The notes beneath the pieces are model-generated. The model was given only the letters and a program-made list of their open reading frames with translations, was not told where the DNA came from and did no database searches. A stretch of DNA of 64,000 nucleotides from Geomonas azotofigens (GTDB lineage: Bacteria > Desulfobacterota > Desulfuromonadia > Geobacterales > Geobacteraceae): NCBI RefSeq assembly GCF_018919395.1, contig NZ_JAHLME010000002.1:620001-684000 (forward strand). Direction: 5' to 3'. This document shows, in pieces, positions 52,777 through 64,000 of this stretch (positions are counted from its first letter, which is position 1; every line of letters starts with the position of its first letter). Position numbers and translations under genes: made by a program.

Positions 52777-53526
52777 ATGCAAGCCACGCAAGGAGCTGTA
52801 AACCTCTGGCCGCTCATCGGTGTAGCCGTAATCATTGCCGGTTTTATCCTACGGCAAAACCCCGTTATGGTTGTCATCATCGCGGCGGTGGTTACCGGCC
52901 TCACCGCCGCCATGCCCATCGACAAGATTCTCATCTCGCTGGGCACCGGATTCGTGAAGACCCGGAACCTGCCACTGATTCTATTGCTGCCACTGGGAGT
53001 CATCGGTCTGCTGGAGCGCTACGGGCTGAAAGAACAAGCCCAGCGCATAATCGCCAAGATCAAATCAGCGACAGCGGGACGGTTGCTGATGGTCTACCTG
53101 TTCGTGCGCGAGTTGACGGCCGGGCTTGGCCTGGTGAGCCTTGGCGGCCACCCGCAGATGGTGCGCCCGCTGATCGCGCCTATGGCCGAAGGTGCGACCG
53201 AAAACCGCTACGGCTCCATACCGGACCAGCTGCTTTACAAGATAAGGGCAATGGCTGCCGCCACGGATAACGTCGGCCTGTTCTTCGGGGAAGACATTTT
53301 CGTAGCCTTTGGAGCCATCGTGCTGATGCAGACGATCCTGCGCGGGTACAGCATAGAGGTCAATCCCCTGCACATGGCGCTGTGGGGCATCCCAACGGCC
53401 ATCTCGGCATTCACCATCCACGCGTTCCGCCTGCGCAGGCTGGACGTGGAAATCGAACGGGAACTGGGTTTCCAGAAAACCGCTGAAACCGTCGTCACCG
53501 AGGCATTCACAGGAGAAAAAGCATGA
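52777..53526 (+). CDS. 5-oxoproline transporter, DUF969-family subunit
   Basis: This 249-residue inner-membrane protein has about six TM helices (VNLWPLIGVAVIIAGFILRQNPVMVVIIAAVVTGL at the N-terminus). The conserved LPLGVIGLLERYGLKEQAQRII and FVRELTAGLGLVSLGGHPQMVRPLIAPMAEGA define DUF969. DUF969 and DUF979 proteins occur together beside pxp genes and are taken as a two-part 5-oxoproline (pyroglutamate) importer. AAGGAGAATGCC precedes the ATG. Its stop overlaps the next start (ATGA). Confidence 0.88.
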   Translation: MQATQGAVNLWPLIGVAVIIAGFILRQNPVMVVIIAAVVTGLTAAMPIDKILISLGTGFVKTRNLPLILLLPLGVIGLLERYGLKEQAQRIIAKIKSATAGRLLMVYLFVRELTAGLGLVSLGGHPQMVRPLIAPMAEGATENRYGSIPDQLLYKIRAMAAATDNVGLFFGEDIFVAFGAIVLMQTILRGYSIEVNPLHMALWGIPTAISAFTIHAFRLRRLDVEIERELGFQKTAETVVTEAFTGEKA

Positions 53527-54491
53527 GTTCGACGATCTTGCCGCTGAATTACTTTTTCATTCTGCTGGGACTGACGCTGTCCGTCATTTCCATCATGTCC
53601 TTTCGCGATCAAGGCAACCCGAGGCGCATCGCCACCGGCTCGTTCTGGGCGCTCTACGCGGTGGTCTTCCTGATCGGTGATCTACTGCTTCCCCTGGTCG
53701 CCGGCATCATCGTCGTGGCGATGGCACTCATCGCCGGGCTGGGCGGCGTCTCCCTCGGCAAGTACAGCCAGTTCACCGCCGAGGAGCGCCACGAAAGCGC
53801 GGTCAAACTGGGCAACCGCCTGTTGTATCCGGCACTGATCATCCCCTTTACCACCATGATCGGCTCGGTGGTATTTCAAAAGACCAAGATCGGCGGCATG
53901 TTCCTGCTCGATCAAAAGAACTTCACCCTGGTAAGCCTTGGCATCGGCTGCATTCTCGCCCTCATCGTCGCCTGCCGCTTCACGGGGTCCACACCGGTGC
54001 AGGCCATGCGCGAAGCCCGCCGCCTGATCGACTCGATGGGGTGGGCCGTGGTGCTGCCCCACATGCTGGCTGTCCTGGGGCTGCTGTTCATGGATGCCGG
54101 CGTAGGCAAGGCGGTAGCCAACATCACCACCACCTACATCCCGATGGACTTCAAGCTGGTGGCCGTAGCGGTCTTCTGTCTTGGGATGACCATTTTCACC
54201 ATGATCATGGGCAATGCCTTTGCCGCCTTTCCGGTCATGGCCGGCGGGGTCGGGGTTCCCATCCTCATGGGGGTGTTCCACGGCAATCCCGCCATCGTCG
54301 CCGCGATCGGCATGTTCTCGGGCTACTGCGGCACGCTGATGACCCCCATGGCGGCTAACTTCAACATCGTCCCTGCGGCCCTGCTCGACCTTCCCGACAA
54401 AAACGGGGTCATCAAGGTGCAGATCATGACCGCCCTGCCGCTGCTCGTGGTCAACATCGCCCTGATGTATTTCCTGATGAACGCGTTCTAG
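53523..54491 (+). CDS. 5-oxoproline transporter, DUF979-family subunit
   Basis: This 322-residue membrane protein has about nine TM helices. LNYFFILLGLTLSVISIMSFRDQGNPRRI, TMIGSVVF, MGNAFAAFPVMAGGVGVPILMGVFHGNPAIVAAIGMFSGYCGTLMTPMAANFN and the ending PLLVVNIALMYFLMNAF are DUF979 hallmarks. It is coupled by 4-bp overlap to the DUF969 partner and probably forms the importer with it. Confidence 0.88.
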   Translation: MSSTILPLNYFFILLGLTLSVISIMSFRDQGNPRRIATGSFWALYAVVFLIGDLLLPLVAGIIVVAMALIAGLGGVSLGKYSQFTAEERHESAVKLGNRLLYPALIIPFTTMIGSVVFQKTKIGGMFLLDQKNFTLVSLGIGCILALIVACRFTGSTPVQAMREARRLIDSMGWAVVLPHMLAVLGLLFMDAGVGKAVANITTTYIPMDFKLVAVAVFCLGMTIFTMIMGNAFAAFPVMAGGVGVPILMGVFHGNPAIVAAIGMFSGYCGTLMTPMAANFNIVPAALLDLPDKNGVIKVQIMTALPLLVVNIALMYFLMNAF

Positions 54492-54509: not shown

Positions 54510-57470
54510 GTGTCCAACCAAGGCGTTGAAGGAGCGGTAAGCCACAGCGGCGATAACAACAGCTGGCTTGAAGCAGAGATGCATCCCTACTTTTTCGTCT
54601 CCATGAAGGACGAGCCGGAGGCGATCGATATCCTCAGGCGCGAACTGGGGACCCTGCGGCATAACCGCCGCCTGATACTCGCGGACCGGGACAGGAGCTT
54701 CATCCAGGCCGTGGCCAACGTTCCCGGGTCGTTGTATGAGTCGATCCGCCGGGTGCGCGAGCGGGAGATATCCTACGCGATGATCGCCCACTCGGAGGGC
54801 CCTCTCCCGGGAATGCAGCAGACCCTGGAAATCCAGCGCCTGGAATTCGACCGCAAATCGAACCACGAGGTCTTGAACGGCAAAGGAAACGAGGTTCCCG
54901 CCGATGTGCGCAACCGGATCCATGACGATTTCATCCGGGAATACCCGGCGAGCCCCACCGGGGACTTCGACCGGCTGCTACGGATCATCTGGCTCAACAA
55001 CGAGAGCTACGTGCGCATTTCCCCGCCGGCGCGGGTGGCCCAGATCCTGAACCTGTTCCAGATGGGCAACCAGGGGGGCGGCCTGCACCTGGACGTGGAA
55101 CCTATGGCAACGGGAGGCGAGTCGCGGGTCCTCTTTGCCGTTGCCAATCCCCCCCAGAAGGACTTCCTGCTGCAGGTCATGGAAGTCTTCAACCGGCTTG
55201 GGCTGGCCGTGAACCGCGCCTACTGCCTGACCATCTCCAACGGCGTCCACCCCTACTTCCTCGGGACCTTCTACGTGCGCCCGCGCGGGGGGAGCCTGCT
55301 GGAAAAGAACTCCGAGAGCTTCGTTCGTCTGCAAGGCGAGTTATACACCACGCAGATTCTCAATGTCGGCTCCCCGACGTACCGCGAGTTCGTCACCAAG
55401 GACGTCATCTCCGGCGAGGACGCCGCCCTGATCAACGCCTTCACCGCGTTCTGCCATTCCAACCTCGCCCACAACCAGCCCGACCGCTTCGGCCTCGAGG
55501 ACGTCCAAAACGCCTTCACCTCCCATCCCGACATAGCGCTCCAGCTGGTGAGGCTGTTCCGCAGCCGCTTCGACCCGCGCGCCGTTGGCGCGACCGACTA
55601 TGAGGCGCTGCTGGCCGCGACGCAGCAGACCGTGACCGATTACAGCACCGGCCACCGCTACCTGGACGAGATACGGAGGGCGATTTTCCGCTGTTGCCTC
55701 TCCTTTATCCGCAACACGCTGAAGACCAACTTCTTCGTGGTGGTGAAGCAGGCGCTCTCCTTCAGGATCGACCCCGCCTATCTGGCCGAGCTCGGTCCCG
55801 ACTTCACCGGGGATCTGCCACAAGGCACACCGTTTCGGATCACCTTCTTCTTCAGCCGTTTCGGCTTCGGCTACCACATCGGCTTTTCCGACATCGCCCG
55901 CGGCGGCTGGCGCACCGTCATCGCCCGCACCAAGGATGACTTCGTCACCAACTCCAACAACCTGTTCCGCGAAAACTTCGTGCTGGCGTTCACCCAGCAT
56001 CTCAAGAACAAGGACATCTACGAGGGCGGCTCCAAGATGGTGTTGATCCTGAACACCGCCGACCTCAAGGCGCGGGATCGTGACCAGGAAACCTGGCGCC
56101 TGTACAAGCTGCAGTACGGTGTCATCAACGCCTTCCTCGACATATACGTGACCGAAAACGGGATCGCGAAAAATCCCGGCGTCGTCGACTACTATCGCGA
56201 GGATGAACCGATCGAGCTTGGCCCGGACGAGAACATGCACGACAACGTCATCGAGGCCATCGCCCGCATCTCGGCGAAAAGGGGCTACATCCTCGGCAAC
56301 GGCATCATGTCCAGCAAGCAGGTCGGCATCAATCACAAGGAATTCGGCGTCACCTCGCTCGGTGTCGTCACCTTTGCCGAGATAACCATGGCCGAACTCG
56401 GCATCGACATGCGCGAAGCCCCCTACTCCGTGAAGATGACCGGCGGTCCCAACGGCGACGTGGCGGGCAACGCCATGCGCTTGCTCCTGGAGCGCTCTCC
56501 GCAGGTGCAGATCCGGCTGATCCTGGACGGGACCGCGGCGCTGTGCGACACGGCCGGAGCGGACCGCGACGAACTCGGGCGCATACTGCTTTCCCGGGAC
56601 CTCGACGCCTTCGACCCGTGGCAACTCAATCCCGGCGGTTTCATGCTCTTTCGCAGCGGGAGCCGCTCCGAGGGACTGCGCGAGCTCTATCGCAAGGTGA
56701 CCCGAACGGCCGACGGGGTGGAGGAAGAATGGATCTCGGTGGATGAATTCTCCCGGGAATTCGCGGAGCTCCCCTTCTGCGTGAAGGCGGACCTTTTCAT
56801 CCCCGGTGGCGGCAGGCCGGAAACCATCGACACGCACAACTGGGAACGCTTCTTACTCCCCGACGGCACCCCTTCCGCCAAGGTCATCATCGAGGGGGCC
56901 AACTCGTTCATCACCCCTGAGGCGCGGCAGCACCTGCAGAGAAAAGGCATCATCATCATGCGGGACGCATCCGCCAACAAGTGCGGGGTCATCTCCTCCT
57001 CCTACGAGATCATCGCCAACCTGCTGCTGACCGAGGAGGAGTTCCTGGCCAACAAGGAGCGCTACGTTGCCGACGTGCTCCAGATCCTGGAACGACGCGC
57101 CGCTGACGAGGCGAGGCTGATCCTGAGGCGCCGCCGCGAGCAGCCAAACCTTCTCTGCACCGACATTTCCAATTCCATCAGCGCCGAGATCAACACGCAC
57201 TACGCACGGCTGTTCAGCTTCTTCCAGAAACGGCCGGACATCTGCCTGCAACCGCTCTTCAAACGGGCGATCATGAGCCACCTCCCCCGCTTCCTGAGCG
57301 AAAACAGCAGTTACAGCCAAAGGATCGGACAACTGCCCCAGAAGTACCTTTTCGCAATCCTCGCGGCCGAAATAGGATCCGCAATGGTGTACCGGGGCGA
57401 CCAGGAGGCGGACTTCGAGGAGTTCGTGAAGGTCTTCCTGGACCGGAACTTCCCTGGGGAGGGAGCATGA
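54510..57470 (+). CDS. NAD-dependent glutamate dehydrogenase, large (about 115-kDa) type
   Basis: This 986-residue enzyme oxidatively deaminates glutamate to 2-oxoglutarate and ammonium. The N-terminal half (about 1-400) is a regulatory region. The catalytic part has FGFGYHIGFSDIARGGWRT, NIYEGG-type GGSKMVLILN, MSSKQVGINHKEFGVTS, the dinucleotide-fold MTGGPNGDVAGNAMRLL, and VIIEGANSFITPEARQHLQRKGI. It is shorter than the roughly 1600-residue proteobacterial GDH and closer to the fungal GDH2 size. GTG 54510 follows AAAAGGAGAAAGTC. Position directly between transporter and 5-oxoprolinase genes points to a catabolic, not assimilatory, role. It overlaps pxpB by 4 bp. Confidence 0.92.
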   Translation: MSNQGVEGAVSHSGDNNSWLEAEMHPYFFVSMKDEPEAIDILRRELGTLRHNRRLILADRDRSFIQAVANVPGSLYESIRRVREREISYAMIAHSEGPLPGMQQTLEIQRLEFDRKSNHEVLNGKGNEVPADVRNRIHDDFIREYPASPTGDFDRLLRIIWLNNESYVRISPPARVAQILNLFQMGNQGGGLHLDVEPMATGGESRVLFAVANPPQKDFLLQVMEVFNRLGLAVNRAYCLTISNGVHPYFLGTFYVRPRGGSLLEKNSESFVRLQGELYTTQILNVGSPTYREFVTKDVISGEDAALINAFTAFCHSNLAHNQPDRFGLEDVQNAFTSHPDIALQLVRLFRSRFDPRAVGATDYEALLAATQQTVTDYSTGHRYLDEIRRAIFRCCLSFIRNTLKTNFFVVVKQALSFRIDPAYLAELGPDFTGDLPQGTPFRITFFFSRFGFGYHIGFSDIARGGWRTVIARTKDDFVTNSNNLFRENFVLAFTQHLKNKDIYEGGSKMVLILNTADLKARDRDQETWRLYKLQYGVINAFLDIYVTENGIAKNPGVVDYYREDEPIELGPDENMHDNVIEAIARISAKRGYILGNGIMSSKQVGINHKEFGVTSLGVVTFAEITMAELGIDMREAPYSVKMTGGPNGDVAGNAMRLLLERSPQVQIRLILDGTAALCDTAGADRDELGRILLSRDLDAFDPWQLNPGGFMLFRSGSRSEGLRELYRKVTRTADGVEEEWISVDEFSREFAELPFCVKADLFIPGGGRPETIDTHNWERFLLPDGTPSAKVIIEGANSFITPEARQHLQRKGIIIMRDASANKCGVISSSYEIIANLLLTEEEFLANKERYVADVLQILERRAADEARLILRRRREQPNLLCTDISNSISAEINTHYARLFSFFQKRPDICLQPLFKRAIMSHLPRFLSENSSYSQRIGQLPQKYLFAILAAEIGSAMVYRGDQEADFEEFVKVFLDRNFPGEGA

Positions 57471-58225
57471 GCGACACAAACATCGTCAAAGCCGGCGAAC
57501 AAGGAGTGGTGGTGGAATTCGGCAACGTGATCGACCCCGGCGTCAACGCCCGGGTTCATCGCCTGGCGCAGTTGATCGCCAGCGACATGCCGGACGAGAT
57601 ACTCGAGCTGGTGCCGACCTACCGTTCCTTGATGGTCTACTTCGACCCGCAGAGAATCAACCGGGAGGCGCTCAGCGAGAAGATCAGGCTCTACCTGGAG
57701 AGCGGCGACCAAAGCGGTGACCGCAGCGACACGGCCACGGTGGTCAGCATCCCGGTCTGCTATGGCGGCGATTTTGGCCCCGACCTCGATTTCGTCGCGA
57801 GCCACAACAAGCTGAGCACGCAGGAGGTGGTCCAGATTCATACCTCCCGCGCCTACCAGGTCTACATGCTGGGCTTTACCCCCGGTTTTCCCTATCTGGG
57901 CGGGATGTCGGATCGGATCGCGGCACCGCGACTGGCTCAACCCAGGGTGGTGATCCCCGCGGGTTCCGTTGGCATCGCCGGCAGCCAGACCGGCATCTAC
58001 CCGATCGAGAGCCCCGGCGGGTGGCAGTTGATCGGGCGCACGCCGCTGCAGATCTTCAGTCCCGGGTCGGCCAACCCGTTTCTCTTCGCGGCGGGAAACT
58101 TCCTGCGCTTTACCGCGATAGACGCCGAAACCTTCCTGGATATCAGGCGGCAGGTGGAATCGGGTAGCTACCTGCCGGTGACCGGCACTATTGAACGAGG
58201 GGGGGACGCCGCATGTGCACTGTGA
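57467..58225 (+). CDS. pxpB: 5-oxoprolinase subunit PxpB
   Basis: This 252-residue cytoplasmic protein is of the KipI/allophanate-hydrolase-subunit-1 fold. The signature is YMLGFTPGFPYLGGMSDRIAAPRLAQPR then IPAGSVGIAGSQTGIYPIESPGGWQLIGRTP. With PxpC and PxpA it cleaves 5-oxoproline to glutamate using ATP. The start is coupled to the GDH stop (ATGA) with GGGAGGGAGC ahead. Older databases call it a sporulation-kinase inhibitor homologue; the neighbourhood makes the 5-oxoprolinase role clear. Confidence 0.93.
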   Translation: MSDTNIVKAGEQGVVVEFGNVIDPGVNARVHRLAQLIASDMPDEILELVPTYRSLMVYFDPQRINREALSEKIRLYLESGDQSGDRSDTATVVSIPVCYGGDFGPDLDFVASHNKLSTQEVVQIHTSRAYQVYMLGFTPGFPYLGGMSDRIAAPRLAQPRVVIPAGSVGIAGSQTGIYPIESPGGWQLIGRTPLQIFSPGSANPFLFAAGNFLRFTAIDAETFLDIRRQVESGSYLPVTGTIERGGDAACAL

Positions 58226-59145
58226 TCAAACCGGGGATGCTGACGACCGTCCAGGACCGTGGGCGCACCGGGTATCGCGCCTTCGGGATGCCGGTGTCCG
58301 GAGTCATGGACCGCTACGCCGCCAGCATGGCCAACATCCTGGCCGGCAATGACCCCGGGGCGGCGGTACTGGAAATGACCATGCTGGGCGGAACCTTCCG
58401 CTTCCCCAACGAAACCTACCTGGCCGTGTGCGGGGCGGATATGCAGGGGACCCTGAACGGCAAGAAGATCAAAAACTGGTCCGCCTTTTACGTCCCGGCC
58501 AACAGCGAACTCTGCTTCGGCTACGCGGTGAACGGCTGCCGCAGCTATCTCGCCTTCTACGGGGGCATCGCCGTCCCCGAGGTCTTGGGAAGCAGGTCGA
58601 CCTATACCCGCGCCGGCATAGGCGGCTTTGACGGCCGGGCACTGCAGGCCGATGACGTCATCGAAATCGCCAAGGCCGACCGGATGCCCTTCGCACCGCG
58701 CGAACTTTCCTACCATCACCTCCCCAAGTACGGCAGCGAGGTGCGCCTGCGGGTAATTCCGGGGCCACAGGAAGGGCTGTTTACCCCCGAGGGGTTGCGG
58801 TCGCTCTTCAGCCAGAGCTTCACGGTTTCCCCCAGAAACGACCGCATGGGTGTCCTCTTGGAAGGGCCGACCATCGAGCATGCCGCGGGGCCGGACATCA
58901 TTTCCGACGCCCTGAGCGCGGGCGCGATCCAGGTTCCGGGGGACGGGCACCCCATCATCATGATGGCGGACTGCCAGACGACGGGCGGCTACGCGAAGAT
59001 CGGTTTCGTGATCGGACCCGACCTGTCCAAGCTGGCACAGGCCAAGGCCGGAGACAGCGTGACCTTTGTGGAGTGCGGCGATCAGGAGGCGGTCGCGGCG
59101 CTGGCCGCGGAAAATTTGAGCTACGAGAAGGCGGCGCTCGGGTAA
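58213..59145 (+). CDS. pxpC: 5-oxoprolinase subunit PxpC
   Basis: This 310-residue protein is of the KipA/allophanate-hydrolase-subunit-2 fold: IKPGMLTTVQDRGRTGYRAFGMPVSGVMDRYAASMAN, VCGADM, GGIAVPEVLGSRSTYTRAGIGG and GHPIIMMADCQTTGGYAKIG. Family proteins are often labelled biotin-dependent carboxyltransferase from their likeness to urea carboxylase. Here it is the partner of PxpB, overlapping it by 13 bp. Together they supply the ATP-dependent part of 5-oxoprolinase. Confidence 0.93.
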   Translation: MCTVIKPGMLTTVQDRGRTGYRAFGMPVSGVMDRYAASMANILAGNDPGAAVLEMTMLGGTFRFPNETYLAVCGADMQGTLNGKKIKNWSAFYVPANSELCFGYAVNGCRSYLAFYGGIAVPEVLGSRSTYTRAGIGGFDGRALQADDVIEIAKADRMPFAPRELSYHHLPKYGSEVRLRVIPGPQEGLFTPEGLRSLFSQSFTVSPRNDRMGVLLEGPTIEHAAGPDIISDALSAGAIQVPGDGHPIIMMADCQTTGGYAKIGFVIGPDLSKLAQAKAGDSVTFVECGDQEAVAALAAENLSYEKAALG

Positions 59146-59203: not shown

Positions 59204-59965
59204 ATGCACATCGATTTGAACTGCGACATGGGTGAAGGGTTCGGCGCGTACACTATCGGCAGTGACGAGCAGGTGATGCCGTTCATCACCTCGGCGAACA
59301 TCGCCTGCGGCTTTCACGCCTCTGACCCGGCGACCATCCGCAAGACCGTCAGGATGGCCAAGACCCACGGCGTCGCGGTGGGAGCCCACCCCTCCTACCC
59401 CGACCTGGTCGGGTTCGGGCGGCGTCCCATGGAACTCTCGGCAGAGGAGGTCACCGCGGACCTGATCTACCAGATCGGGGCCCTGGCCGCGTTCTGCAAG
59501 TGCGAAGGGATCAAGCTGCAGCACGTAAAGCCGCACGGGGCGCTCTACAACAAGGCCGCCGTCAGCAGCACCATAGCCTTGGCCATCGCCGAGGCGATCA
59601 AGGCCCTGGATCCTGACCTGTACCTGGTATGCCTGAGCAATTCCGAGATGGTGACCGCCGCCAAGGCAACCGGCATCAGGTACGTGGAAGAGGTCTTCGC
59701 CGATCGCGCCTACACCCGGGAAGGGAAACTGGTGCCGCGGACCCAGCCGGGCGCGGTGATCCACGATCCGGCGCTGGCCGCGGAACGGGTACTGGCCACG
59801 GTCAGGGACCGCAGCGTGACCTCCATAGATGGCAGCGAGGTCCCTCTCAACGCCCAGACCATCTGCGTTCATGGCGATACCGCCGAAGCTATCGAGATGA
59901 TCCGGATCATCAGGTCGCGGCTGGAGCGGGAAAAGGTTCAACTGAACGCCTTCGGCACTCTTTAA
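59204..59965 (+). CDS. pxpA: 5-oxoprolinase subunit PxpA (LamB/YcsF family)
   Basis: This 253-residue TIM-barrel-like protein opens [16 protein letters not shown], followed by [44 protein letters not shown] and [13 protein letters not shown]. The His/Asp residues of these motifs form the proposed active site. It completes PxpABC. AAGGAG lies 8 nt upstream. The order here is B-C-A, with the carboxylase genes starting 13 bp later. Confidence 0.95.
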
Positions 59966-59978
59966 AGCGAGGTACACC

Positions 59979-61529
59979 ATGACCATCGAAAGCAAACTCC
60001 ATCTTCTGCAGGCCAAAAACGAGCAGGCCGAGTTGGGGGGCGGCGCTGACAGGATCGAGAAGCATCACAAGTCCGGCAGGCTCACCGCCCGGGAGCGCAT
60101 CGCCATCTTGCTCGACGAGGGGAGCTTCAACGAGATCGACAAGTTCGTCACCCACCGCTGCCACAACTTCGGGATGGAAAAACAGAAGATCGCCGGCGAC
60201 GGTGTGGTGACCGGTTACGGCACCATCGACGGAAGGCCGGCATACGTCTTCGCCCAGGACTTCACCGTCTTTGGCGGGTCCCTCTCCAAATCCTATGCCG
60301 AGAAGATCGTCAAGATCATGGACATGGCCCTGAAGAACGGGGCGCCGGTAATCGGCCTGAACGATTCCGGCGGGGCCCGGATCCAGGAGGGGGTCGATTC
60401 GCTCGCGGGCTACGCCGACATCTTTTTGCGCAACGTCACCTCCTCCGGGGTGGTGCCGCAGCTGTCGGCCATCATGGGGCCCTGCGCGGGGGGAGCGGTC
60501 TACTCGCCGGCCATCACCGATTTCGTCTTCATGGTCAAGGACACCTCCTACATGTTCATCACCGGCCCGGAGGTCATCAAGACGGTAACCCACGAGGAGG
60601 TGACCAAGGAGGAACTGGGGGGAGCCATGACCCACAACTCCAAGTCGGGATGCGCGCACTTCGCCTGTTCCGATGACGAAGAATGCCTGCTGATGATGCG
60701 CGAACTCTTTTCGTTTCTCCCCCTGAACAACATGGAGGACCCTCCGCGGGCCGCGTGTGACGACGACATCAATCGCTGCGAAGATGCCCTGCGCAGCATG
60801 ATCCCCGATGACCCGAACGTCCCCTACGACATCAAGGAGGTCATCAAGGCCGTGGTCGATGACCGCTATTTCTTCGAGGTCCAGGAGCACTACGCCAAGA
60901 ACCTGGTGGTGGGCTTCGCCCGGTTGAACGGCAGGCCGGTAGGCATCGTCGCCAACCAGCCCATCTTTCTGGCCGGCGCCCTGGACGTCGACTCCTCCCT
61001 CAAAGGGGCGCGCTTCACCCGTTTCTGCGACAGCTTCAACATCCCGCTGGTGATCTTCGAGGACGTCCCCGGTTTCATGCCCGGCGTGGGGCAGGAACTG
61101 GGCGGCATCATCAAGCACGGCGCCAAGCTCCTCTACGCCATGGCCGAAGCGACCGTGCCCAAGATCACCGTCATCACCCGCAAGGCCTACGGCGGCGCCT
61201 ACTGCGTCATGAACTCGAAGCACATCCGCGGCGACTACAGCATGGCCTTCCCCACGGCGGAAATCGCGGTCATGGGGCCGGAAGGCGCGGTCAACATCAT
61301 TCACCGGGCCGAGATGTGCGCTTCCGACAACCCGCAGGAAACCCGGAAATCACTGGTCAGCGACTACCGGGAAAAGTTCGCCAACCCTTACAATGCGGCC
61401 GAACTCGGCTACATCGACGAAGTCATCGATCCGGCCCGGACCCGGTCCAAGCTGATCAGCGTGCTCGAGATGTGCAAGAACAAGCGCGATGCCAACCCGC
61501 CGCGCAAGCACGGCAACATCCCGCTGTAG
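59979..61529 (+). CDS. Acyl-CoA carboxylase carboxyltransferase subunit (PccB-like)
   Basis: In this 516-residue crotonase-fold carboxyltransferase the N-half has the acyl-CoA site [24 protein letters not shown] and [23 protein letters not shown]. The C-half has the carboxybiotin site [26 protein letters not shown] and [18 protein letters not shown]. Sequence type is that of propionyl-CoA carboxylase beta or methylmalonyl-CoA decarboxylase alpha. The true substrate cannot be read from the sequence. It follows pxpA by 13 bp and precedes its biotin carboxylase by 49 bp, so it belongs to the same operon. Confidence 0.9.
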
Positions 61530-61578: not shown

Positions 61579-63102
61579 ATGCCTGCTGACAAGCTTTTTA
61601 ACAAAGTCCTCATCGCCAACCGCGGCGAGATCGCGGTACGGATCATCCGCGCCTGCCAGGAACTCCAGATCCCCACCGTAGCTGTCTATTCGGAGGCGGA
61701 CCGGGCCTCGCTGCACGTGAGGGTGGCGGATGAAGCCTACTGCATCGGCCCAGCCCCCGCCTCCCGCTCCTATCTCAGGACCGACACCATCATCGAGGTG
61801 GCGAAGAGGTCCGGCTGCGACGCCGTCCACCCCGGATACGGGTTCCTCTCTGAAACGGCCGCTTTTGCCGAACTCTGCGCGGCAGAAGGGATCACCTTCA
61901 TCGGGCCCAACCCGGATGCCATCAGGACCATGGGGGACAAGGTCGCGGCCCGGAGGGTGGCGGCCGCGCAGGACGTCCCGCTGGTGCCCGGCATGCTGGA
62001 GGAGTTGAAGGACGACGGCGCGGCGCGGCAGGTAGCTGACACCATCGGTTACCCGCTCATGGTCAAGGCGGTGCATGGGTTCGGCGGAAAGGGGATGCGT
62101 GTCGTGGAGCGCCCGGAGGACCTGGCCAGGCTGGTGCGGGCGGCCCGTTCCGAGTCGTTCAACTGCTTTGGCAGCAGGGCGGTCTACCTGGAGCGCTGTA
62201 TCGAAAGCCCCCGGCACATAGAGATCCAGATATTCGGCGACAAACAAGGGCACGTGGTCCATTTCATGGAACGCGAGTGTTCCATCCAGCACCGTCGCCA
62301 GAAAGTGATCGAAGAGGCGCCATCGACCATCGTGGATGAAGAACTCCGAGGGAAACTGGGCGAAGCGGCTCTCCGCATCGCGCGAGCGGTCGGCTACGAT
62401 TCGGCTGGAACCGCAGAGTTCCTGGTCAACGCGGCAACGAAGGAATTCTTCTTCCTGGAGATGAACACCCGTCTGGCGGTCGAGCACCCGGTCACCGAGG
62501 CTGTCACCGGCACCGACCTCTGCAAGGAGATGATCCGCGCGGCCGCCGGCCTCCCCCTTTGCTTCCAGCAGCAGGACATCTCGTTTCGTGGTCACGCCAT
62601 CGAATGCCACATCCACGCGGAGGATCCGGATCACGACTTCTTCCCCATCGCCGGGCGCATCGCCGGCCTGCGCACGCCGGGCGGCCCGGGTGTCCGCGAT
62701 GACTCGGGCATGTACGAGGGACTCGAGGTGCCCCCCTACTACGACCCGCACCTGGCCAAGCTCGTGGTGTGGGCCAGCACCCGGGAGCGCTGCATCAGCC
62801 GGACCCGGCGGGCACTGTCCGAGTACTTCGTGAAGGGGATCAAGACCACGATCCCCTTCTGCGAACGGGTCATGCAGAATGAGCATTTCATTGCCGGCGA
62901 CTACGACACGACCTTCATCGACAGCAGGTTCGTCAAGGAGGATGCCGCCAGGGAAAAACCGCACCAGGAGGTGGCGCTCCTTGCGGTCGCCATCAAAGCG
63001 TTCCGCAGCGACCAGTCCCAGACTCGCAAGAGCGCCGCTATTTCAGACACCACTTTGCAGGCCGAATCGGGCTGGAAGATGAGTGGCCGTATCAAACGCT
63101 GA
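61579..63102 (+). CDS. Biotin carboxylase subunit with unusual active-site residues
   Basis: This 507-residue ATP-grasp protein has the AccC/PccA layout (ANRGEIAVRIIRA, HPGYGFLSE, EMNTRL). Several near-invariant positions differ. The glycine-rich lid reads KAVHGFGGKGM instead of KA-GGGG-[RK]GM. The catalytic QRRHQK is QHRRQK (Arg240 where E. coli AccC has His236). TRLQVEH is TRLAVEH (Ala300 for Gln294), and ECRINAED is ECHIHAED (His344 for Arg338). Lys242, Arg298 and Glu302 are kept. The C-terminus lacks a biotinyl domain, which is on the next gene. The ATG at 61579 has AAGGAG upstream. It is either a divergent catalyst or partly inactive. Confidence 0.88.
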   Translation: MPADKLFNKVLIANRGEIAVRIIRACQELQIPTVAVYSEADRASLHVRVADEAYCIGPAPASRSYLRTDTIIEVAKRSGCDAVHPGYGFLSETAAFAELCAAEGITFIGPNPDAIRTMGDKVAARRVAAAQDVPLVPGMLEELKDDGAARQVADTIGYPLMVKAVHGFGGKGMRVVERPEDLARLVRAARSESFNCFGSRAVYLERCIESPRHIEIQIFGDKQGHVVHFMERECSIQHRRQKVIEEAPSTIVDEELRGKLGEAALRIARAVGYDSAGTAEFLVNAATKEFFFLEMNTRLAVEHPVTEAVTGTDLCKEMIRAAAGLPLCFQQQDISFRGHAIECHIHAEDPDHDFFPIAGRIAGLRTPGGPGVRDDSGMYEGLEVPPYYDPHLAKLVVWASTRERCISRTRRALSEYFVKGIKTTIPFCERVMQNEHFIAGDYDTTFIDSRFVKEDAAREKPHQEVALLAVAIKAFRSDQSQTRKSAAISDTTLQAESGWKMSGRIKR

Positions 63103-63126: not shown

Positions 63127-63642
63127 ATGGCATATATCGTTACCTGCAAGGGAGAAGAGCGGAACATAGGGGTGGAGGAGCGTCATCCCGGCCTGTACAC
63201 CGTTCACTTGGGAGGGAAGGAATACCTGGTCGATTACCACGAATCGCGGGATAACCTCTTGTCCCTGATCATCGATGGCAAATCGTACGAGGTCGACATC
63301 GAAGTTTCCGAGAGTGGGGAGATGTACGGTGTCGACATCCAGGGGGATCATTTCGAACTGGAAGTAGTTGAGGAGAAGAAAAAAAAGCTGGCCAGGAAGC
63401 TGTCCGCCGCGCCAAGCGGGAGGCAGGAGATCAGGTCACCAATGTCTGGCAACGTCTGCAAGATCCTGGTCAAGCAAGGGCAGCCTGTCGAACCGGGCCA
63501 AGTGCTTATGATCCTTGAGGCGATGAAGATGATGAACGAGATCAAGGCAACCGTTGCCGGGGTTATCGGCTCACTGAAGGCGAAAGAGGGCGTCCCGGTT
63601 GCGACCAACGACTTGCTGTGCGTGGTGGAACCGGCGGAATAG
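63127..63642 (+). CDS. Biotin carboxyl carrier subunit
   Basis: In this 171-residue protein the N-terminal 90 residues form a beta-rich region with a lysine-rich linker (VEEKKKKLARK). The C-terminal biotinyl domain (about 100-168) carries the attachment motif EAMKM with biotin lysine 134. The separate carrier shows the carboxylase is a three-gene type (carboxyltransferase, biotin carboxylase, carrier). The N-terminal part resembles the linker of PccA-type alpha subunits, as if PccA had been split. GGAGGGATTCC precedes the start. Confidence 0.92.
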   Translation: MAYIVTCKGEERNIGVEERHPGLYTVHLGGKEYLVDYHESRDNLLSLIIDGKSYEVDIEVSESGEMYGVDIQGDHFELEVVEEKKKKLARKLSAAPSGRQEIRSPMSGNVCKILVKQGQPVEPGQVLMILEAMKMMNEIKATVAGVIGSLKAKEGVPVATNDLLCVVEPAE

Positions 63643-63753: not shown

Positions 63754-64000
63754 ATGCCAAAGAAAGAGATCGATACCAGCAGCGTTCAGGGTACTTCCAA
63801 GCCGTCCGATGAGAATAACGTCCATATCGTTACGTCCTCACATCTCGCTATTTCCTACCCCGAGTCATCCGAATTCGAATTCGGGCTCATCATTGCCTAT
63901 CATGCCTTCGAACGCTGGATGGTGCGTTGTATGAACGCCGCCGGAGCCAAGGACATGGCCCCGCTCGACATCCTGATCCTGCACCATATCAACCACCGCG
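63754..64000 (+). CDS. Winged-helix (MarR-like) DNA-binding regulator, partial
   Basis: ATG 63754 follows GAGGG; 82 residues are visible before the window ends. After a polar N-terminus comes SEFEFGLIIAYHAFERWMVRCMNAAGAKDMAPLDILILHHINHR, the pattern of a MarR-type winged-helix family in which a long helix precedes the HTH. The HTH itself is cut off. Position at the end of the 5-oxoproline operon makes it a candidate local regulator, possibly acting at the inverted repeat at 52472-52488 (inference). Confidence 0.7.
   Translation, partial: MPKKEIDTSSVQGTSKPSDENNVHIVTSSHLAISYPESSEFEFGLIIAYHAFERWMVRCMNAAGAKDMAPLDILILHHINHR

Follow-up and report, generated by a model that had tools for sequence, protein, structure and literature searches.

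A biotin carboxylase (BC) of Geomonas azotofigens carries a genuine remodelling, fixed in one clade, of an active site that is otherwise nearly invariant. The gene lies in the 64,000-nucleotide stretch of contig NZ_JAHLME010000002.1 analysed here (hereafter, the window), and its product is, judged by sequence, the BC subunit of a predicted three-subunit complex of the acyl-CoA carboxylase type, encoded with a carboxyltransferase (CT) and a biotin carboxyl carrier protein (BCCP) in one operon with 5-oxoproline genes. Of the textbook BC residues, Arg338 and Gln294 are both replaced in this protein. With a probability that we put at about 0.5, it would be a changed but not broken BC variant that uses ATP and whose biotin/bicarbonate gate has been remodelled.

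The start codon of the BC gene (ATG at 61579) is preceded by AAGGAG, and the Biotin_carb_N, ATP-grasp and Biotin_carb_C domains follow one another in order (PF00289, 165.5 bits; PF02786, 228.2 bits; PF02785, 124.4 bits), placing the product in the BC family by homology. Its score exceeds the cut-off of NCBIfam NF006367 (629.7 versus 597) and lies below that of the accC equivalog TIGR00514 (608.2 versus 626.5). An AlphaFold2 model computed from an alignment of 21 sequences (mean pLDDT 87.2, pTM 0.84) was superposed with VIA-align on 2vpq_A (Z 56.1, rmsd 1.1, 447 residues aligned) and on 3g8c_A, which contains biotin, bicarbonate and ADP (Z 55.0, rmsd 1.4, 443 residues aligned). The modelled fold is that of a BC, from which activity is unreadable; built mainly on canonical relatives, the model proves only that the fold can persist. 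With E. coli AccC and the bacterial BCs 3g8c and 2vpq, the window BC has in common this fold, the three Pfam domains, the MgATP residues, K238, R292, E296 and R16, whereas Q294A, R338H, R234H, G164F and M384H set it apart from AccC. The alpha subunit of the propionyl-CoA carboxylase (PCC) holoenzymes 3n6r and 6ybp can likewise be aligned to the window BC, and PCC beta is closest to the window CT, but, unlike in these holoenzymes, BC and BCCP are encoded here by separate genes.

Table 1. Operon genes and substituted BC codons, in window coordinates (residue numbers in parentheses are those of E. coli AccC)
Feature	Position	Strand	Evidence or remark
DUF969 membrane protein, probable transporter half	52777..53523	+	PF06149, 283.8 bits
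DUF979 membrane protein, probable transporter half	53523..54491	+	PF06166, 390.1 bits
Large NAD-type glutamate dehydrogenase-like protein	54510..57470	+	PF05088, 85.5 bits; PF00208, 85.9 bits
PxpB-like subunit	57467..58225	+	TIGR00370, 229 bits (cut-off 145.55)
PxpC-like subunit	58213..59145	+	TIGR00724, 288.8 bits (cut-off 230.2)
PxpA-like subunit (LamB/YcsF)	59204..59965	+	NF003814, 377 bits (cut-off 226)
CT subunit, MmdA/PccB type, 516 aa, canonical-looking	59979..61529	+	PF01039, 663.8 bits; closest solved chain 3n6r_B, PCC beta
BC-like ATP-grasp subunit, 507 aa, remodelled bicarbonate/biotin site	61579..63102	+	PF00289, PF02786, PF02785
T-loop/lid codons H166-G167-F168 (G162-G163-G164)	62074..62082	+	Modified clade fixed for H/N and F/C
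H238-R239-R240 (R234-R235-H236)	62290..62298	+	R234 absent from 5/5 modified BCs; 236 variable everywhere
A300 (GCG), replacing bicarbonate-contact residue Gln294	62476..62478	+	Alignment; contact from PMC9581989
H344, replacing Arg338, stabiliser of deprotonated biotin	62608..62610	+	Alignment; role from PMC9581989 and PMC8667948
H391, replacing a hydrophobic residue (M384), two residues past D382	62749..62751	+	Alignment
BCCP, 171 aa, EAMKM intact	63127..63642	+	PF00364, 67 bits
Winged-helix (HTH_27, MarR-like) regulator, running past the window end (L069)	63754..64000	+	PF13463, 75.4 bits

The operon reads DUF969, DUF979, glutamate dehydrogenase, pxpB, pxpC, pxpA, CT, BC, BCCP and winged-helix regulator. 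The same gene set recurs at L070, at L071 and, within the sequence available there, at L077. The genes for CT, BC and a biotinylatable BCCP stand side by side, which is the gene arrangement of a three-subunit acyl-CoA carboxylase. When the Pxp proteins were examined as a PxpABC 5-oxoprolinase, the PxpA and PxpB models were exceeded, as was the broader TIGR00724 for PxpC, but the PxpC equivalog NF045499 was not (252.7 versus a cut-off of 500). The residue that follows GGAY in the CT, which we take to determine acyl-CoA specificity (Asp422 in Streptomyces PccB), is Cys in the window, compared with Val in 3n6r (PCC) and Ile in 1vrg, so that the substrate may not be propionyl-CoA. Of 15 aligned CTs, 11 have Cys at this position, and these 11 all belong to this operon module; the CT at L109 has its Cys in GGACC, and the outgroup CTs at L034, L009 and L010 have Asp.

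Residues are numbered throughout after E. coli K-12 AccC (L092), to which the window BC was aligned and whose motifs it matches gap-free; V165, H166, F168, H238, R240, A300, H344 and H391 of the window protein thus stand for S161, G162, G164, R234, H236, Q294, R338 and M384, whereas R16, K116, K159, G163, G165, G166, E201, H209, Q233, K238, E276, E288, N290, R292, E296 and D382 are intact. The canonical BCs used for comparison are a chosen set of 46, many of them mutually related: 23 of the 34 loci of a pattern-seeded scan, 12 and 6 loci of other searches, two sister operons, E. coli AccC, and the AccC and pyruvate carboxylase of the window genome (left out were L005, a copy of L071, as well as L021-L025, L028-L031 and L037; L024 has masked residues). 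R234, Q294 and R338 are each present in all 46, and the invariance of the latter two marks Q294A and R338H as truly unusual. Position 384 is I, L or M throughout the set, and G164 is kept in 45. Position 162, by comparison, is Ala in 42 of the 46, and position 236 is H in 37, N in 5, F in 3 and R in one, the canonical BC at L011, which shares H236R with the window. Both of these positions vary in canonical BCs and were rejected as signs of lost function.

The first-pass annotation had reported Gln294 as Ala300 and an essentially universal Arg338 as His344, with Lys238, Arg292 and Glu296 intact and the neighbouring subunits normal, and in all this it was right. Its reading of the other sites needs amendment: His236 is indeed Arg240, but this is ordinary variation at a position it took to be invariant; of the two lid glycines given as His166 and Phe168, the residues are correct, but only G164 is a conserved glycine; and the changes of R234 and M384 to His were missed. 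The canonical residues do not sit elsewhere in the fold, as the gap-free motifs and the superposition over 443-447 residues attest, and misalignment was rejected as a cause of the odd residues.

Among columns conserved at 98% or more in the canonical set, the window BC differs at 3 of 66, namely R234, Q294 and R338. In a leave-one-out comparison within the canonical set, the pyruvate carboxylase of the window genome differed at 5 of 71 such columns, L079 and L011 each at 2 of 68, and the other 43 at one or none. The count of such changes in the window BC is therefore not extreme, but their location is. Outside this ultra-conserved class, the window BC is altered no more than canonical relatives: in successive classes of falling conservation, 12/95, 41/144 and 86/133 columns are changed, compared with 11/97, 34/136 and 84/139 in L072 and 13/95, 42/135 and 88/140 in L079.

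A search of every available genome (48 in the family, 141 in the order, 277 in the class) turned up four more close BCs that share the pocket changes of the window: those of G016 and G017, which belong to the same genus (88% identity), and those of G120 (80%) and G053 (79%), each from another family within the order. Q294A and R338H thus recur together in five genomes, down to about 77-80% BC identity, and the five BCs form one clade, implying a single evolutionary event. Where a functional AccC-type BC is expected to have Gln294 and Arg338, all five have Ala and His, respectively, and all five have M384H; position 234 is H, H, H, F, F, position 162 H, H, H, N, N and position 164 F, F, F, C, C, whereas position 236 (R, N, H, N, N) is not among the common changes. 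Every one of them keeps the residues to which we assign MgATP binding (K116, K159, H209, E276, E288, N290) and bicarbonate activation (K238, R292, E296). In four of the five genomes the BC reading frame is intact, and in the fifth (G053) it stays open until the contig stops; at L078, the contig end cuts the BC off at 424 aa. At L077 (869-2416), the modified BC also lacks Glu241, the residue that pairs with Arg338 in the salt bridge reported for the gate.

Searched as a DNA pattern, the Q294A motif was found in 5 of the 277 class genomes, exactly those with the modified BC, and in 1 of 395 sampled genomes of the phylum, the window's own. The exact Q294 pattern was found in only 133 of the same 395, so that pattern searches must miss many BCs with other wording; beyond the phylum, genomes were covered by the pattern-seeded scan only. 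As to a mobile source, no relative was seen in a scan of viral contigs, and 991 plasmid records matched, all at <60% identity, with no close copy among them.

The odd residues had been proposed to reflect a shifted chemistry specific to this operon type or, alternatively, relaxed function. Five sister operons (L079 in G058, L105 in G580, L006=L107 in G593, L007=L108 in G603 and L109 in G513) have the same neighbour genes as the window (pxpBCA, CT, BC, BCCP and regulator) with BCs 55-65% identical to that of the window, but these BCs, unlike the window BC, are canonical and keep R234, Q294 and R338, and their pxpABC genes are of another type. L006 is equated with L107, and L007 with L108, because their contigs agree in length. 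Five related pxp operons with canonical BC mean that operon type alone cannot explain the change, and this explanation was rejected as stated. The change belongs to one lineage of the pxp-CT-BC-BCCP operon. Window PxpA, PxpB and PxpC are 36-46% identical to those of L079, compared with 59-70% between L079 and the sister operons L006 and L007. The pxp genes of the window look replaced inside a conserved operon, given that their identity to L079 is 36-45% as against 88% for DUF979 and 79% for CT, and the BC change coincides, as a single event, with this different pxpABC set. In the BC of L079 (6406-7941), the lid is altered (C162, V164) and R234, Q294 and R338 are canonical, possibly a halfway state. 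The stretches available around the BCs at L072, L106 and L008 showed no pxp gene.

The modified BC is under purifying selection, with dN/dS values of 0.10, 0.13, 0.15, 0.17 and 0.20 (Nei-Gojobori) for five pairs of modified BCs. On maximum-likelihood trees, BC has a stem branch of 0.349 leading to the modified clade, compared with 0.069 in CT and 0.224 in BCCP. Inside the clade, BC distances divided by CT distances gave 5.6, 3.3 and 3.1, compared with 1.0-2.3 in seven canonical pairs, whereas the BC/BCCP ratio was not raised (0.65-0.88 versus 0.53-0.88); between the window and L070, for instance, CT is 97.5% identical and BC 88%. Four fixed changes specific to the clade were found in CT and none in BCCP. 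We read these rates as a burst in BC at the time of pocket remodelling, followed by continued, somewhat looser constraint, with CT unusually slow. Wholesale relaxation of function is disfavoured by the dN/dS values, by the 63 of 66 ultra-conserved columns kept and by the ordinary behaviour of the other conservation classes, but partial relaxation may hold, BC being fast relative to CT both on the stem and within the clade.

According to a study of Lactococcus pyruvate carboxylase (PMC9581989), Glu294 and Arg290 promote deprotonation of bicarbonate, which is contacted by Glu294, Arg290 and Gln292; Arg341 stabilises deprotonated biotin; the 231-239 loop binds nucleotide when the lid is closed; and a salt bridge between Arg341 and Glu239, reported to form after ATP cleavage, bars carboxybiotin from re-entry. 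These residues would be E. coli E296, R292, Q294, the 233-241 loop and E241 by a two-residue offset, and R338 by alignment. In E. coli BC, as PMC8667948 reports, R338Q lowers activity 100-fold and D382 sits in the biotin pocket. The changes at 234, 338 and lid positions 162/164 would accordingly fall in the gate loop, the enolate arginine and the T-loop of the scheme in PMC9581989; with R292 and E296 kept, the window BC would retain the bicarbonate-activating parts, and the alterations would affect a single contact to bicarbonate, the residue for the biotin enolate, the gate loop and the T-loop. A literature search, outside which most subscription papers lay, returned nothing relevant on Arg338 variants of BC, BC pseudoenzymes or a Geomonas carboxylase, which leaves absence unproven.

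In the reading that we prefer, one operon lineage would have remodelled its BC at the bicarbonate/biotin end and at the lid/loop gate while leaving the MgATP end intact. The window BC would still bind MgATP and still activate bicarbonate, with E296 and R292 deprotonating it for attack on ATP. The ureido group of biotin would be held differently, with His338 and perhaps also His384 taking over from Arg338, and the Arg338-Glu241 gate would be lost. Biotin carboxylation would then be altered in rate, gating or reversibility, and the protein would be no dead relic, although carboxylation may simply be crippled, given the cost of R338Q in E. coli, and the long BC stem branch (0.35 versus 0.07 for CT) speaks against a purely selective story.

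The loss of two catalytically important residues, one of which costs 100-fold when replaced singly in E. coli (R338Q; PMC8667948), together with a CT far more conserved than BC, would also suit a subunit dead for carboxylation that binds MgATP and aids assembly or regulation, CT and BCCP acting as decarboxylase or transcarboxylase or BCCP being charged in trans by the housekeeping AccC. The window genome indeed has a canonical AccC (own_L001) and, next to a mutase, a separate set of BC and CT. We regard this as a tentative alternative with appreciably less than an even chance, since one would expect a subunit that does no chemistry to have lost part of the complete MgATP set and of K238, R292 and E296, all kept in 5/5, and the window retains nearly all ultra-conserved columns. 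A changed substrate or direction, with another carboxyl acceptor or donor, or with the reverse reaction (carboxybiotin, ADP and phosphate yielding ATP) favoured once the re-entry gate is gone, seems unlikely. The loss of Arg338 and of gate-loop R234, and in L077 also of Glu241, would fit it, the gate role being taken from PMC9581989, as would the divergence of pxpABC, but BCCP and its biotinyl motif are unremodelled, and the Pxp difference and the BC change are one correlated event rather than independent cases. A specific form of it, to which we give slightly less credence still, would have the gate opened by the loss of both arginines, so that carboxybiotin re-enters and the complex becomes mainly decarboxylating and ATP-forming (or uses another acceptor), tied to 5-oxoproline/glutamate catabolism.

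Two simpler accounts fit poorly. A BC gene turning into a pseudogene could produce the long stem branch and a rate of evolution above that of CT, but open frames, dN/dS of 0.10-0.20 and shared substitutions kept across five genomes make this very improbable; purifying selection already contradicts it, and the substitutions are not peculiar to one strain, so single-strain decay was rejected. That the protein is an ordinary, fully active BC in whose scaffold these residues are simply replaceable would agree with its ordinary overall conservation and with the variation of H236 and residue 162 among canonical BCs, but strains belief to the same degree, because Q294 and R338 are kept even in a BC-like paralogue of 1035 aa encoded by the same genome (27% identical to AccC over the aligned part, by BLAST) and the Q294A pattern is confined to the window's own genome in the phylum sample.

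His and Ala kept at 338 and 294 with the ATP end unchanged would amount to a natural experiment on uncoupling carboxyphosphate formation from biotin carboxylation, and the modified BC would allow tests, beyond site-directed mutants, of what the lid, the 233-241 loop and Arg338 do. If it is active, the essential residues of BC are fewer than assumed; if inactive, a conserved carboxylase subunit has been retained for another purpose.

The window genome also encodes a second CT of MmdA/PccB type (514 aa; L100 4960-6501, in G000:C1), near which no BC or BCCP gene was recognised when the ORF list of a 14-kb stretch was inspected without family models. The 1035-aa paralogue (L098, G000:C13:195000-206000) has a BCCP-like C-terminus and reads Q-M-H-E-Q-K, with M-H-E at positions 234-236, where AccC reads Q-R-R-H-Q-K; its neighbours are a carboxyltransferase and, named by eye from sequence, a mutase and a short epimerase-like protein.
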